Assembly: GCF_900109545.1 (NCBI RefSeq)
Contig: NZ_FOAP01000006.1
Span: 186,001 to 250,000 of the forward strand
Reading direction: 5' to 3'
DNA length: 64,000 bases
Source: Stigmatella aurantiaca
GTDB taxonomy: Bacteria; Myxococcota; Myxococcia; Myxococcales; Myxococcaceae
Positions 8,984-32,326 of the stretch are shown here, piece by piece. Both the position numbers and the translations under genes were made by a program. The stretch's first letter is position 1. Each line of letters starts with the position of its first letter. The notes below the pieces were generated by a model. That model did no database searches. It was not told the DNA's origin and was given only the letters and a program-made list of their open reading frames with translations.

Positions 8984-10297
8984 CTACGCGGTGCGGCCGA
9001 ACACCCGGCGGAAGATGTCGTCCACGTGCCGCGTGTGGTAGCCCGTGGAGAAGCAGTCGCGGATCTCCTCGGGCGTCATCACCTTCAGCAGGTCCGCGTC
9101 CGCGAGGAGGGCCGTGCGGAAGTCCGCCCCCTCCTCGTACATCTTCATCGCGTTGCGCTGGACGATGACGTAGGCGGCCTGCCGGTCCATGCCCTTGCGC
9201 GCCAGCTCCAGCAGGATGCGCTGCGAGTTCACCACGCCGCCGAGCAGCTCCAGGTTCTTCTGCATCTGCTCGGGGTAGACGCGCAGGTTCTCCATCAGCC
9301 CCGCGAAGCGGTGGAGCATGAAGTCCATGACGATGGTGGCATCCGGCCCAATCACCCGCTCCACGGAGGAGTGGGAGATGTCCCGCTCGTGCCACAGCGC
9401 CACGTCCTCCAGCGCGCTCACCGCGTAGCCGCGCAGCAGCCGCGCCAGCCCCGACAGGTTCTCCGACAGGATGGGGTTGCGCTTGTGCGGCATGGCGCTG
9501 GAGCCCTTCTGCCCCGGCGTGAAGGCCTCCTCCACCTCGCGCACCTCCGTGCGCTGCAGGTGGCGGATCTCCACCGCGAACTTCTCGATGCTGGCGCCCA
9601 GGAGGGCCAGCGCCCCGAAGAACTCCGCGTGCCGGTCGCGCTGGACAATCTGACTGGAGGCCGGGGCCGGGTGCAGGCCCAGCTTGCGGCACACGGTCTC
9701 CTCCACCGCGGGCGGCAGGTGCGCGAACGTGCCCACCGCGCCTGAAATCTTCCCGACGGCGATGGTCTCCCGCGCCCGCTCCAGCCGGGCCCGGCCCCGG
9801 CTCAGCTCGTCGTACCAGATGGCCAGCTTGTGGCCGAAGGTGATGGGCTCCGCGTGGATGCCGTGGCTGCGCCCCATCATCACCGTGAGCCGGTGCTCGA
9901 AGGCCCGCTTCTCCACCGCGGCCATCACCCGCCCCAGGCCCTTCAGGATGAGATCCAACGCGTCGCGCAGCGTGAGCCCCAGCGAGGTGTCCAGCACGTC
10001 CGAGGACGTCATGCCCAGGTGCAGCCAGCGGGCGCTCGGCCCCACCCGCTCCTCCATGAAGGTCAGGAACGCGATGACGTCGTGCTTGGTGGTGCGTTCG
10101 ATCTCCTCGATGCGCGCGGCGTCCTCGGGGGTGAAGTCCCCGGCCTTGGCCCGGCAGTCCTCCAGCGCCTCGCGCGGGGCGAGCCCTGCCTCCACCATGC
10201 CCTCCAGCGCCGTGAGCTCCACGTCGCGCCAGCGGCGCAAACGGGCCACATCGGACCAAAGGGAGGACATCTCCTGCCGGCTGTATCGAGGAATCAC
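8984..10297 (-). CDS. purB: Adenylosuccinate lyase
   Basis: 437 aa from GTG at 10297 (MIPRYSRQEMSSLW, the usual PurB opening). Splits SAICAR and adenylosuccinate with release of fumarate. The fumarase/aspartase signature SSAMPHKRNP is intact, as are TSSDVLDT and GRSHGIHAEP with the catalytic His. Convergent to purC; both genes act in consecutive purine steps, though on opposite strands. Confidence 0.96.
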   Translation of the reverse strand: MIPRYSRQEMSSLWSDVARLRRWRDVELTALEGMVEAGLAPREALEDCRAKAGDFTPEDAARIEEIERTTKHDVIAFLTFMEERVGPSARWLHLGMTSSDVLDTSLGLTLRDALDLILKGLGRVMAAVEKRAFEHRLTVMMGRSHGIHAEPITFGHKLAIWYDELSRGRARLERARETIAVGKISGAVGTFAHLPPAVEETVCRKLGLHPAPASSQIVQRDRHAEFFGALALLGASIEKFAVEIRHLQRTEVREVEEAFTPGQKGSSAMPHKRNPILSENLSGLARLLRGYAVSALEDVALWHERDISHSSVERVIGPDATIVMDFMLHRFAGLMENLRVYPEQMQKNLELLGGVVNSQRILLELARKGMDRQAAYVIVQRNAMKMYEEGADFRTALLADADLLKVMTPEEIRDCFSTGYHTRHVDDIFRRVFGRTA

Positions 10298-10333
10298 GCG
10301 TCGACCTTTATGGAAATGAATGGACTGCCAGAG

Positions 10334-12508
10334 TCATGGCTGCAGCCCCGCACAGCAGCGGAACCCCACCGTGCCCGAGCGTGCCGAGGGAAGCCCGTTG
10401 AGCCGCGCCGAGCAGCGCACCGCGAACGCCGAGCGGTTGAATGCCCCGCCCTTCTGCGTCATGTCCGCGCCCCCGGCGTACGGCGTGGCCGTCCACTCCG
10501 CCACGTTGCCCGAGAGGTCCGCGACCCCGTACGAGGAGCGGCACTGCGGGAACCGGCCCGCCTCGGCCAGCACCCGGTCCGTGCCCGCCGCGTCGTCGGT
10601 GCTGCAGCGGTCCGCATCGAAGGTGTTGCCGTAGGGGAAGCGCGCGTTGCCCGCGCCCTTGCACGCCTTCTCCCACTCCTCTTCCGTGCACAGCCGCTTG
10701 CCCGCGTTCTGGCAGGCATCCTTCGCCTCCAGCCAGCTCACGTTGACGGTGGGCAGTGCCCCGGCCTGGTTGGGGTGCTCGAACTCGTCCACACAGAAGG
10801 AGGGCACCTGCCGGCTCTCGAGCGGACGCTCATCGGAGGCCTGGTCCGGATCATCCGGCGCGGTGCCCATCTTGAAGGCCCCGCCGCTCACCAGCTTCAT
10901 CCCCGGAGGACAGCTCCCCGAGGGGGCCATCGCCACGGCCGGGGGGCTCTCCCGGGGCGGCGGCGCCTGAGGACGCGGGGCCCCGGGCGCGGGCAGGGAC
11001 GGCGTCCCCACGGCCCCGGGCGCGGGCGCCGGACGCAGCCGCTTCAGCAGCAGGTAGCCCACGGCCGAGCCCGTCACCAACCCCGCGACGGTCAGCAGCG
11101 CCAGCCACAGGAGCAAGCGGCGGCGCTCCCCCGTGTCCCGCTTACCCCGGACCGGACCCTTCGAGCGCGCCCGGGGCGCAGGAGGCGCGGAAGGCGCCGG
11201 GGGCACCCCGGGAGGGCTGGCGGTGGGAGGCGGCGCGGCCACGGCGGGCCGAGGGGCCGGGTGAGGCTTGCTGGCGCGCGGCTCGGGCGCGGGCCGGGGC
11301 TCCGCGGGAGGACTGGCCACCGGCGCGCTGGCCGCACCGGCGCGGACCGGCGGCTCCGGCACGTCCGCTTTGCGCGCACTGGAAGCCGCGGGGGTGGCGG
11401 CCATGATGGCGGCCAGCATCTCCGCGTCCATCGGCTGGGTGGCCTCGGAGGGAGGCTCCGGCCGCTGCCCTCCCCGGGGGGGCATGGCGGGGATGGGGAG
11501 CTGCTCCGTGGGAACCGGCGGCGGCGGTTTCTCCGCCTGGCGCACCGGGGGCATGCTCCGCGAGGGACGGCTCGGGGCCCCCGGACTGCGCGCCACGATG
11601 GCGGAGACCTCGGCGGAGAACTCCCCCGCCGTCTTCGGCCGGGCGAGCGGGTTGGCGTTGAGCGTCCGCCGGTAGATGGCCTCGAAGGCGGGCGGAAGGT
11701 CCGGATTCTTCGCCAGGAGCTCCGGCACCCCATCCCCATCGGGGGTGAGCCCGGTGAGCATCTCGCCCACGATGGCCGCGAGCGAGTAGAGGTCCATCCG
11801 CGTGTCGATCTCCCCTCCGGAGACGTACTCCGGGGCGATGTACCCCTCCACGCGGTGGCCCTTCTGGGCCTGGACGAACGGCGGGCGCGGAATCCCCAGG
11901 GCGAGCCCGTAGTCCGTCACCTTGAGCATGTCCGGCAGGACGATGATGTTCTCGGGCTTGAGGTCCGAGTGGGGGCCGTACCGGTGCGCGGCGTCGATGG
12001 CGGAGGCGAGCTGCGCCAGCAGCGGCTCCACTTCCCGGAGCGTGAAGGGCTGCCCCTTCGCCGCGCGCCCCTCCATCATCCGGCGCAGCGTCATGCCCTC
12101 CACGAGCTGCGTGGTGAAGAAGGGCCGCTCCCGGTCGGTGCCCTCCTCGTACACGCGCAGCAGGTTCGGGTGGTTGAGCTTCTTGCCCACCCGGAGCGCC
12201 AGGGCGAACTGGGTCCGCTCCTCGGGCTCCTGCAACAGCCGGGGGCTGATGACCTTGAGGGCCACCTCCACGCCATGCGCCTGGTCCAGCACGCGGAAGA
12301 CGTGGCCCAGCGGGCCGCTGCCCACCCATTCCTGGGTGGTGAAGCGTCCCGCGATGATGTCTCCTGGCTTGTAGGGCGCGTTCTCGGAGCCACTGCGGCG
12401 GCGCGCGGGGCCTCCCGCCGCCTGCCGGGCCGCGTCGTACTTCTGGCCGCAGGTCGGGCAGGTCTCGCTCGTGTCAGGGACGTGGCTGCCGCAGCGGTAG
12501 CAGAGCAC
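10334..12508 (-). CDS. Membrane Ser/Thr kinase fused to an FGE-sulfatase-like domain
   Basis: 724 aa. N-terminal zinc ribbon (CYRCGSHVPDTSETCPTC). Kinase domain about residues 50-300: Gly loop GSGPLGHVF, lysine in VALKVI, catalytic loop HSDLKPEN (Ser for Arg of HRD), and DYG in place of DFG. Then a Pro/Ala-rich linker, one membrane helix near residues 455-485 (LALLTVAGLVTGSAVGYLLL), and a C-terminal formylglycine-generating-enzyme-like domain about 531-724 (MVSGG-type start, CTEEEWEKAC, LSGNVAEW, GFRCC). The position of the FGE catalytic Cys seems occupied by Phe (GGAFNRS), so the domain may bind rather than oxidise. Chlamydia Pkn1 has a similar fusion. Cytoplasmic kinase and external sensor are inferred from the single helix. 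Confidence 0.88.
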   Translation of the reverse strand: MLCYRCGSHVPDTSETCPTCGQKYDAARQAAGGPARRRSGSENAPYKPGDIIAGRFTTQEWVGSGPLGHVFRVLDQAHGVEVALKVISPRLLQEPEERTQFALALRVGKKLNHPNLLRVYEEGTDRERPFFTTQLVEGMTLRRMMEGRAAKGQPFTLREVEPLLAQLASAIDAAHRYGPHSDLKPENIIVLPDMLKVTDYGLALGIPRPPFVQAQKGHRVEGYIAPEYVSGGEIDTRMDLYSLAAIVGEMLTGLTPDGDGVPELLAKNPDLPPAFEAIYRRTLNANPLARPKTAGEFSAEVSAIVARSPGAPSRPSRSMPPVRQAEKPPPPVPTEQLPIPAMPPRGGQRPEPPSEATQPMDAEMLAAIMAATPAASSARKADVPEPPVRAGAASAPVASPPAEPRPAPEPRASKPHPAPRPAVAAPPPTASPPGVPPAPSAPPAPRARSKGPVRGKRDTGERRRLLLWLALLTVAGLVTGSAVGYLLLKRLRPAPAPGAVGTPSLPAPGAPRPQAPPPRESPPAVAMAPSGSCPPGMKLVSGGAFKMGTAPDDPDQASDERPLESRQVPSFCVDEFEHPNQAGALPTVNVSWLEAKDACQNAGKRLCTEEEWEKACKGAGNARFPYGNTFDADRCSTDDAAGTDRVLAEAGRFPQCRSSYGVADLSGNVAEWTATPYAGGADMTQKGGAFNRSAFAVRCSARLNGLPSARSGTVGFRCCAGLQP

Positions 12509-12604
12509 GGAGGGGGGGCTCCAAAATCCTTACGGGCCCTTGGCCGACAGCCCGCGTCATTCCCTATCCTGCCCGTACCCAGGTCCGCAAGGAACGGCCG
12601 TGTT

Positions 12605-13063
12605 TCATCGTCCGGTGGAGCCGAAGCCCCCCTCGCCCCGGGGCGTGACTTCCAGGACGGAGACCTCCTGAATCTCCACGGTGGACACGGGCACCACCAC
12701 GAGCTGGGCAATCCGGTCCCCCCGGCTCAGGGTGAAGGGCTCCTGCGAGAGGTTCACCAGGATGACCTGCACCTCGCCCCGGTAGTCCGCGTCGATGGTG
12801 CCCGGCGCGTTGAGCAAGGTAATACCGTGCTTGAGCGCCAGGCCCGAGCGCGGGCGCACCTGCCCCTCGTAGCCCGGGGGCAACGCGAGGGCGAGCCCGG
12901 TGGGCACCGCCAGGCGCTCGAAGGGCCGCAGCGTCCGCGTCCCCTCGATGTCCGCCCGCAGGTCCATCCCCGCCGCGAGCGCCGTCTCGTAGCGCGGCAG
13001 CGGCAAGGGCGCGGGGTGGTCCGGGCGCACACGGCGCACCTGCAAGCTCAAGGACGAAGGCAT
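12605..13063 (-). CDS. dut: dUTP diphosphatase
   Basis: 152 aa, normal length for a trimeric dUTPase. All five motifs are present: [47 protein letters not shown] and the C-terminal Gly-rich arm [11 protein letters not shown]. Hydrolyses dUTP to dUMP and PPi, keeping uracil out of DNA and supplying thymidylate synthesis. Followed by the unrelated kinase gene and preceded by the M23 gene, all on the minus strand. Confidence 0.96.
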
Positions 13064-13109
13064 GTCCTCCCAAGTAACACACAGCCCTACACCTGTCAGA
13101 TTCGCGGCC

Positions 13110-14120
13110 TCAGGGCGGGGACGAGCCGGCGACCGCCTGCTTCCGGACCCGGAAGCGCAGCGGATCCACCGCCTGCGCGGACAGCTCGAGCTGGTAGTGC
13201 AGGTGGGGGCCGGTCGACCGGCCCGTGTTGCCCGAGCGGGCGATGGGCTCCCCGCGCGCCACGCGCTGCCCCGGGCGCACCAGCAGCTCCGAGTTGTGAC
13301 AGTAGGCGGTCGTCACCCCGCTGCCGTGGTCGATGAGGAGCACCTTGCCGTTCACGGCGTCCTCGCTCGCGCGGCGCACCGTGCCCTCGGCCACCGTGCG
13401 CACCTCCGTCCCGATGGGGACGCCCAGGTCCACCCCCGTGTGCAGCTTCCGCGTGCCCAGCGTGGGGTGGACGCGGTAGCCGAAGGGGCTGGAGATGCGG
13501 GTGGACTCCGCAACCGGCCACCCCAGCCCGAACGCGGTGGTGAGCGCCAGCGTCTGGGTGGCCGCCACCTTCGCGTCCTCGAACCCTGGCGGAAGCTGCT
13601 GGGCCAGCCGCTCCAGCGTGAGGGCCCCGCCTTCCGCCCCCACCCGCTCCACCGCGTAGCGCGCGGGAACACGCCCGGCGAACACGGCCGTGAGGCGGGC
13701 CTGTGGGTCGGGAAAGTCCACCCCGAGGGCCTCGTGGAGCGCCCGGGCCGCCGCCGGGCCCCCTTCGGCATCCAGCAGCGACAACGGAGGCACCCCCACT
13801 TCCTGGGCGAGCGCCATCACCTGCCGGCGCGCGGAGGGCTTCAGCCCCTTCAACGCCAGGTGCGTGCCATAGGCGAGGGCCTCCTCGTGGGAGAGCGCCC
13901 GGGCCAAGGGCGCCTCCGGCACGAGCGCGGCGGCCGCCACGCCCGCGCTGCTCACCCCCTCGTAGTAGGCCAGCAAGGGGCGCGCGGTGCTCTGGGTCCG
14001 GAAGGCCCAGGCCGCCCCTCGCCGCACCAGCGCCCCCGCGGGCGTGTGGTGGTAGGCCGCCCAGAGACATAGGAGGGCCATCGTGAAGTCGAGCAGCCCT
14101 CTGGCACGGTGCGAGAACAC
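13110..14120 (-). CDS. M23-family (LytM-like) peptidoglycan endopeptidase
   Basis: 336 aa from GTG at 14120, chosen because GAGGAGGGG lies just upstream and a membrane anchor ([17 protein letters not shown]) follows. The C-terminal M23 domain has the zinc ligands in LHTGVDLG and HLHYQL, with [16 protein letters not shown] before them. The 170-residue middle has no known domain. It begins 11 bp after the stop of the upstream membrane-protein gene, so the two are probably co-transcribed. Predicted to cut cell-wall cross-links in the periplasm. Confidence 0.88.
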
Positions 14121-30763: not shown

Positions 30764-32326
30764 ATGAACGAACGCTACCGGCTCGTGCGTCCCCTGGCCA
30801 CCGGAGGCATGGCGGAGCTGTTCCTGGGCATTGCCCAAGGCGCCGGGGGCTTCGAGAAGCCGGTGGCCATCAAGCGGATGCGGCCCCACCTGGCGCAGGA
30901 CGAGGGCCTGGTGCGGATGTTCCTCGCCGAGGCACGGCTGGCCACGCACCTGCACCACCAGAACATCGCCACCGTGTACGACGTGGGCACGCACGCCGCG
31001 GGCCTCTTCCTGGTGATGGAGCTGGTGAATGGGTGGGACCTGGGCCGGCTCATGCGCCACGCGGCCCGGCGGGGGCAGCGCCTCCCCCCGCACCTGGTGG
31101 CCTTCATCGGCGCGCAGGTGCTCGCGGGCCTCATTCACGCCTACCGGCGCACGCACCAGGGGCGGCCCGTGCTCACCGCCCACCGGGACATCTCGCCCTC
31201 CAACATCCTCGTGTCCCGCGAGGGCGAGGTGAAGCTCACCGACTTTGGCATCGCCAAGCGGGAGGGCATCTCCCACGGCACCGAGCCCGGGGTCTTCAAG
31301 GGCAAGCCCTCCTACGCCACGCCGGAGACGGTCCGCGGCGAGCCCGCCACCGCGGCGAGTGACCAGTTCTCCCTGGGGCTCGTCCTCCACGAGCTGCTCG
31401 GCGGCGTGCACCCCTTCCACGACGCGGTGGACCCGATGGCCGTCGCCATCGCGATCGCCACGCGCCCGCCCCCGCCACTGCCGGATGCGCCGCCGCCCCT
31501 GGCCGAGGTGGTGATGCGCGCCCTGTCTCCGCAGCCCGAGGCGCGCTTTCCGCAGCCCGAGGCGATGGCCGAGGCGCTCGCGCGCTACCTGTCCCGGGCG
31601 GGCGAGCCCGCCACCTCCAACACGCTGGCCGCCTTCATCGCCGGGCTGGAGCTGCCCCCCACCCTGCTGGAGCAGGGGGAGCCGCTCGCGCCGGAGATGA
31701 ACGCCACGACGCTTTGCGCCGGGCTTGCCCCCCTCCAGGAGCTCTCCCAGGGCTTCGCCATTCACGCCGAGCCCCTGCCGCTCCTGGAAGGGCTGGCCTC
31801 GCGCCCCATCGAGCAGGTGGCCCGGGAGGCTCCCGCCACCGCCGCCGCCCCGGAGACCCAGCCAGGGCTGCGCCAGGCGCAGGAAGCCCTGCTCGAAGCC
31901 CCCGAGGCCTCCCAGGAACCCCTCGAGCTGGTGGAGCGCTCCCCGTCTCCCCTGGCGTCCGCGAGGACGCAGGCCGTGCCCGAGGGGACCGCGGAGCGGC
32001 GGGCCCCGGCCCGGAGGTGGAAGGGGCTGCTCGGCGCGGGCGTGCTGCTGGCCGCCGGGCTCGCCGGGGCCGGGCTCTGGCGTCCAGGCATCCTCTCCCG
32101 GGAGCAGGCCATCACCTTCCCCTCGCTGTCGGTCGTCAGCCAGCCCGAGGGCGCGCGGGTGCTCGTGGAGGGGGTCGACCAGGGGAAGACGCCCCTGGTG
32201 ATGGACAACACCTACCCTCCCGGCAGCGTCTCCGTGCAGCTCACCTTGCCGGGCTACAAGCCGTGGAAGGGCACCTTCACCGGGGGCGCGTCGGCCACGC
32301 TCGACGTGCGCCTCCAGAAACGCTGA
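30764..32326 (+). CDS. Transmembrane Ser/Thr protein kinase with PEGA domain
   Basis: 520 aa. Kinase about 5-270: PLATGGMAELFLG loop, lysine in PVAIKRM, catalytic loop HRDISPSN (the usual myxobacterial HRD variant), DFGIAK, and PSYATPET. Linker of about 130 residues, one membrane helix near 420-440 (GAGVLLAAGLAGAGLW), and an external PEGA domain (VVSQPEGARVLVEGVDQGKTP ... LPGYKPWKGTF). PEGA domains are thought to bind surface polymers. Catalytic residues are complete, so activity is expected. Converges on the sspB-like gene with 6 bp between. Confidence 0.93.
   Translation: MNERYRLVRPLATGGMAELFLGIAQGAGGFEKPVAIKRMRPHLAQDEGLVRMFLAEARLATHLHHQNIATVYDVGTHAAGLFLVMELVNGWDLGRLMRHAARRGQRLPPHLVAFIGAQVLAGLIHAYRRTHQGRPVLTAHRDISPSNILVSREGEVKLTDFGIAKREGISHGTEPGVFKGKPSYATPETVRGEPATAASDQFSLGLVLHELLGGVHPFHDAVDPMAVAIAIATRPPPPLPDAPPPLAEVVMRALSPQPEARFPQPEAMAEALARYLSRAGEPATSNTLAAFIAGLELPPTLLEQGEPLAPEMNATTLCAGLAPLQELSQGFAIHAEPLPLLEGLASRPIEQVAREAPATAAAPETQPGLRQAQEALLEAPEASQEPLELVERSPSPLASARTQAVPEGTAERRAPARRWKGLLGAGVLLAAGLAGAGLWRPGILSREQAITFPSLSVVSQPEGARVLVEGVDQGKTPLVMDNTYPPGSVSVQLTLPGYKPWKGTFTGGASATLDVRLQKR

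Follow-up and report, generated by a model that had tools for sequence, protein, structure and literature searches.

A conserved receptor of myxobacteria whose kinase and sulfatase-activator folds both seem to lack their chemistry and to be kept as switch and sensor

Myxobacteria, which are predatory soil bacteria, conserve a receptor that carries a kinase fold and an FGE (sulfatase-activator) fold in one chain. This raises the question whether either of the two folds still performs its chemistry and, if not, what the protein may sense and report. The copy analysed here lies in the window, a 64-kb stretch of contig C6 from a genome of 9.37 Mb in 61 contigs. The open reading frame is real, exact on the minus strand at 10334-12508 with 724 aa from a GTG, and it is far beyond chance because its ectodomain is present in 64 of 98 related genomes (E <= 1e-30) and the gene lies between dut and purB in 45 of 60 loci, the window included. 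The features are as follows.

10334..12508, minus strand: receptor gene, 724 aa, GTG start (open reading frame, Pfam, relatives)
12440..12508, minus strand: N-terminal zinc ribbon, aa 1-23, with C3, C6, C17 and C20 (sub-threshold Pfam match, conserved pattern)
11594..12364, minus strand: kinase-fold domain, aa 49-305 (Pfam, structure model, motifs)
11123..11593, minus strand: Pro/Ala-rich linker, aa 306-462, 45 P and 31 A of 157 residues (composition)
11042..11122, minus strand: single transmembrane helix, aa 463-489 (hydropathy maximum)
10343..10912, minus strand: FGE/C-lectin-like ectodomain, aa 533-722 (Pfam, alignments, ten invariant Cys)
10308..10337, minus strand: nine-codon open reading frame with an ATG that overlaps the stop of the receptor (ATGA); relatives begin a solute-binding-protein gene here
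12605..13063, minus strand: upstream neighbour, which from its sequence and from recall we take to be dut (dUTPase)
8984..10297, minus strand: downstream neighbour, taken on the same grounds to be purB (adenylosuccinate lyase)

The receptor and its family

The original prediction had read a zinc ribbon, a kinase, a membrane helix and an FGE-like domain in one chain, and this architecture is confirmed. Pfam matches Pkinase at aa 57-256 (E 6.7e-28) and FGE-sulfatase (PF03781) at aa 581-719 (E 2.5e-27) in the window receptor, and its zinc-ribbon matches at aa 3-23 stay under the cut-off (DZR, E 0.011). The CxxC-CxxC pattern of the ribbon is present in 60 of 60 family members, a set that was partly recognised by this pattern. 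Hydropathy peaks at aa 465-488 (2.14, the next-best stretch elsewhere reaching 1.34), and this order of parts would place the FGE-like domain in the periplasm and the kinase fold in the cytoplasm. No sigma-70 promoter and no terminator was found in 10200-13200.

The search of genome contigs gave 26 loci, ten of which (L001-L010) have the full architecture. Three divergent loci (L011-L013) combine kinase and FGE, the zinc ribbon not being found. In 13 Nitrospirae/Leptospirillum loci (L014-L026), the matches start at query residue 469 at the earliest, which is the ectodomain half, with 26-29 % identity. The ectodomain-positive genomes comprise 50 of 58 in the family of the window genome (f1), where the gene stands beside housekeeping genes, and 14 of 40 others; family f5 has none in 15. 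Small genomes are included, as all three f1 genomes of 2.1-2.7 Mb keep the ectodomain. Besides the window genome there are 63 positive genomes. Regions were taken from 56 of them, and after removal of five duplicates there were 69 rows, the window plus 68 distinct open reading frames. We kept 60 as members and dropped nine: L132, with no kinase domain; L160 and L171, with none in frame; L168-L170, second hits that are kinases with HRD and the alphaC Glu; and L011-L013, divergent and with the zinc ribbon not found. Members were recruited via the ectodomain, and receptors without it are under-sampled. In addition to the loci with both neighbours, dut alone is beside the receptor in seven (L116, L121, L147, L148, L149, L158 and L163) and purB alone in one (L156), which gives dut and/or purB in 53 of the 60 loci; neither was matched in seven (L010, L128, L133, L140, L146, L152 and L159), a count in which many flanks are short.

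Two folds and their catalytic residues

The kinase fold of the window copy keeps G63, G65 and G68, K85, N187 and D199. The position of the alphaC Glu is occupied by A104, HRD reads HSD (180-182) and DFG reads DYG (199-201), so that the HxD Asp (D182) is kept together with K85 and D199. The HSD and DYG variants pointed out by the original prediction are both present, but neither disables a kinase by itself, and we rejected them as signs of inactivity.

The family columns are informative. K85, H180, N187 and D199 are each found in 60 of 60 members. The HxD Asp is present in 44 (the rest have N in 12, G in three and S in one), and the alphaC Glu is present in nine and absent from 51, with four members keeping both. 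The HRD Arg is absent from all 60. The middle residue of DFG is Y in 29, F in 25, V in four, W in one and L in one; at the P+1 position (219), 50 members have R or K and ten have G; and the activation segment, from DFG to APE, contains no Ser/Thr in 30 members, one in 20 and two or more in ten. At position 97 (E97), which lies two helical turns ahead of A104, 59 of the 60 members have E. As a control we used 40 other kinases, hand-picked among the matches listed of the 154 kinase-domain matches in the window genome. These controls, mostly full-length matches and thus a choice that favours intact motifs, have the alphaC Glu in 40/40, the HxD Asp in 39/40, the HRD Arg in 38/40, the P+1 Gly in 40/40, and the Lys, the Asn and the DFG Asp in 40/40 each, with two to eight Ser/Thr in the activation segment.

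On a maximum-likelihood tree of the 60 members, built leaving out columns 104 and 182, the HxD Asp changes at least 13 times (column median 8) and the presence of the alphaC Glu three times. K85, H180, N187, D199, D239, G65 and G68 do not change at all. L010, L147 and L156 form long branches. The HxD Asp varies even within the genus of the window, where L119 has HSD and L120 has HSN. The structure model of the kinase fold is confident (pLDDT 87.6) and nearest to PknA and PknI, PknA being the best PDB match. At the family level, these columns suggest that a nucleotide-binding fold is under selection and that catalysis is relaxed. The label Ser/Thr kinase in the original prediction is doubtful, since the alphaC Glu is lost, the HxD Asp has been lost repeatedly, the P+1 loop is altered and the activation segment has few Ser/Thr.

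Several points speak against calling the protein a pseudokinase. Loss of the alphaC Glu need not abolish activity, and E97, judged by its position and conservation, might compensate for it. Most members, the window copy and 43 others, retain the HxD Asp, and because the window copy is one of them, its activity is possible. For M. xanthus, pseudokinases are reportedly called by three residues, the beta3 Lys, the HxD Asp and the DFG Asp; one of the three is lacking in 16 of our 60 members. Under the three-residue rule quoted in PMC6791715 (excerpt), the window copy, with all three kept, would count as active.

For the ectodomain, phmmer alignments to wild-type human FGE and to its mutants C336S and C341S put Cys336 opposite a gap between F690 and N691, where posterior values for the placing are modest, and Cys341 opposite Ala694. 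The original prediction of an FGE domain without the expected catalytic Cys is thus borne out, as the pair is missing from the window copy and from 60 of 60 members. The Phe that it had put at the Cys position has to be corrected: Phe695 is the neighbour of Ala694. No Cys occurs between KGG and the RC of RCSAR in any of the 60 members. The cysteines of RCSAR and FRCC, which had been named as possible occupants of the active site, are not there but opposite human Cys346 and Cys365. Altogether C599, C616, C699 and C718 are opposite Cys218, 235, 346 and 365, which form disulfides in FGE, and all 60 members share ten ectodomain Cys. The ectodomain is predicted to contain disulfides, with four of the ten Cys forming the pairs that correspond to 218-365 and 235-346 of FGE. 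Formylglycine-generating activity is improbable on these alignments and was rejected as a reading, with the active-site Cys pair absent from all 60 members. The best relative by both sequence and fold is SUMF2 (1y4j), and SUMF1 is also among the best PDB matches; the structure model of the ectodomain is poor (pLDDT 58.8) and was used as weak support.

The loss of the active-site Cys is not special to the receptor. On reading, none of the eight PF03781 matches of the window genome looked like a Cys-type FGE, including six kinase-FGE paralogues, and the remaining FGE-family frame resembles EgtB/SenA-type proteins. Four PF00884 sulfatase-family matches pass the cut-off in this genome. The six paralogues (L036-L041, on contigs C15, C5, C3, C13, C28 and C7) are open frames of 1265-1485 aa. 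The window itself holds a second Ser/Thr kinase gene at 30764-32326 on the plus strand; its product has 520 aa and, on reading, a TM-like segment at the C terminus. Another locus of the genome (L096, G000:C9:48215-48979) encodes a degenerate kinase in a 523-aa frame, with HHN for HRD and a window-like GSGPLG loop.

A partner gene in relatives and the loss of single parts

A solute-binding-protein gene is located directly behind the receptor in 42 of 59 assessable loci and is absent from 17; L159, cut short behind the receptor, was left out. In 39 of the 42 the gene is near full length in one frame, and in L121 and L163 it is cut by the contig end. What is left in L142 is a broken fragment spread over two frames, as though the gene were in the course of being lost. 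All six proteins scanned are PF04392. Where the gene is near full length, the receptor stop reads ATGA in 22 of 39 loci and GTGA in five, so that a start codon can overlap the stop, and the two genes may be coupled. The gene also follows the receptor in L010, L128, L133 and L152, where dut and purB were unmatched; at L010 no permease was seen on reading, and the genes after it are on the other strand. PDB relatives include 6hni, which we take to be CD0873, as well as 3lkv and 3lft. CD0873 has been linked to tyrosine import (PMC6816091, excerpt).

The window genome has no homologue of this protein at E <= 1e-5, and therefore the partner is not needed there. The same result was obtained for G001, G004 and G005 of the genus, and G002, G003 and G006 of the same genus have one homologue each. 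At E <= 1e-20, 52 of 98 genomes have the protein somewhere in the genome. Its presence changes at least eight times on the 60-member tree; this count and the one that follows scored all 42 genes as present, the L142 remnant included. A tie between loss of this gene and loss of the HxD Asp is not claimed (naive Fisher p 0.023, independent tree pairs median p 0.625). A tblastn search of the window for a degraded copy gave nothing better than E 4.9 and 5.3. The nine-codon frame behind the receptor has no detectable homology; it is possible that it is a vestige of the gene, and it may also be chance. The original prediction of a sensor rather than an enzyme gains support from the missing Cys pair, and it is strengthened because relatives, although not this genome, have a solute-binding-protein gene behind the receptor.

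Single parts have been lost in specific lineages. Three genomes (G041, G047 and G053; L175-L177) have the solute-binding protein and no ectodomain match; their receptor frame consists of the zinc ribbon, the kinase fold and, on reading, a TM segment, where it ends, and is followed by the solute-binding protein and purB. In G014 (L132:1715-3355) the zinc ribbon, linker, TM segment and FGE domain are still between dut and purB, and at that locus no kinase-domain match was found between dut and the FGE domain. What all these cases share is the zinc ribbon and the TM segment.

Readings of the receptor and known systems

We consider it probable that the protein is a single-pass receptor pseudokinase, combining an ATP-binding fold with a sensor built on the FGE fold and the solute-binding protein. 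The motif losses together with the conserved ATP site support this reading, as does the receptor without a kinase domain in L132. In the proposed mechanism, the periplasmic, disulfide-rich FGE-fold domain would make no formylglycine; it would bind either a free ligand or a periplasmic solute-binding protein loaded with one, and the TM helix and the flexible linker would pass the effect of binding on to the kinase fold in the cytoplasm and so alter it. The kinase fold, with its ATP-Mg-binding residues kept, might bind ATP and act as a nucleotide-dependent conformational switch or docking platform instead of a phosphotransferase, with the zinc ribbon as a probable partner-docking element. A more modular arrangement is possible, though we regard it as doubtful: kinase and FGE folds would both be non-catalytic binding parts, the signal would come in via the ectodomain or the co-encoded orphan solute-binding protein, and the output would be a zinc ribbon on a membrane anchor. 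The ribbon would then be the real output because one lineage does without the kinase fold, and the window lineage would have kept the FGE ectodomain only, whereas the three genomes without an ectodomain match kept the solute-binding protein only. Rather unlikely, in our opinion, is a Ser/Thr kinase, weakly active or atypical, that the ectodomain gates; catalysis would survive in the HSD members, perhaps with E97 taking the place of the alphaC Glu, and would be lost in some lineages only. The HxD Asp in 44 of 60 members, the invariant K85, N187 and D199, the near-invariant E97 (59 of 60) and the confident model closest to PknA and PknI all agree with such a kinase. However, the HxD Asp has changed at least 13 times, also inside the genus of the window (L119 and L120), the HRD Arg, the P+1 Gly and the Ser/Thr of the activation segment are mostly lost, and one genome has no kinase domain at the receptor locus.

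Two further readings concern the ectodomain. That it is a different type of FGE-fold enzyme, EgtB/SenA-like or PvdO-like, signalling to the kinase fold, we hold to be very improbable: the ectodomain weakly matches models of EgtB, SenA and PvdO and structures of EgtB and PvdO, but its top match in sequence and fold is the FGE paralogue SUMF2, and the N-terminal DinB-like domain that sulfoxide synthases carry in addition was not seen here by Pfam. Very improbable as well is an anti-phage or conflict receptor that senses antigens by a diversified FGE-type binding domain, a role proposed for nSTAND-FGE proteins. FGE/C-lectin domains have been put forward as non-enzymatic sensors of invasion in conflict systems (PMC10907252 and PMC7159879, excerpts), and of the six kinase-FGE giants in the same genome, the one scanned has an nSTAND1 domain. 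Against this, the receptor has a stable place beside dut and/or purB (53 of 60 loci), and its ectodomain is conserved, not hypervariable, and gives a single match in 58 of the 64 positive genomes (two or three in six). The PADLOC matches begin at the kinase domain, some extending into the linker, and none among the 25 matches listed reaches the ectodomain.

The signals that drive bacterial Ser/Thr kinases have been described as an outstanding question (PMC6069109, excerpt). Should the receptor be non-catalytic and work with a co-encoded binding protein, it would offer a tractable ligand-to-output system, and the HxD Asp being present versus absent between close species would be a natural experiment. 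We found no description of this family in the literature searched, which was largely open-access; a term search of PMC7694542 gave no mention of sulfatase or pseudokinase. In Minicystis rosea, FGE-sulfatase is over-represented, with 69 members (PMC8436480, excerpt). For M. xanthus, 99 STPKs were counted, with 11 reported pseudokinases by the three-residue rule (PMC6791715, excerpt). This rule would miss members of the receptor family that keep the HxD Asp and can thus undercount pseudokinases.

Among known proteins, the giants L036-L041 resemble the receptor in joining a kinase fold and an FGE-fold domain in one chain. They differ from it in that six of six keep HRD, DFG and the alphaC Glu, in their size, and in the nSTAND1 NTPase domain that Pfam finds in L036, the one scanned. 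SUMF2, the FGE paralogue that best matches the ectodomain, has the FGE fold and is not known to keep the active cysteines, but it is a human secretory-pathway protein and not a receptor domain. Chlamydia Pkn1, to which the original prediction likened the receptor, would be similar in combining kinase and FGE. The nearest working model is the PknG-GlnX-GlnH system of Actinobacteria, in which the solute-binding protein is proposed to inform a kinase with a rubredoxin module and periplasmic amino-acid sensing is proposed (PMC6069109, excerpt). As in that system, a Cys metal-site module precedes the kinase fold and a solute-binding protein is co-encoded (in 42 of 59 assessable loci, one a broken remnant, and not in the window genome), and PknG matches the window receptor at aa 10-305. 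PknG, however, is catalytically active and has a TPR domain, and the membrane protein of that system, GlnX, is a chain of its own; Pfam finds no C-terminal TPR domain in the window receptor, whose C terminus is FGE-like. The solute-binding protein of the relatives is PF04392 and is missing from the window genome. Unlike the PknG system, the receptor has its membrane segment, ectodomain and kinase fold in one chain, and this kinase fold is degraded.
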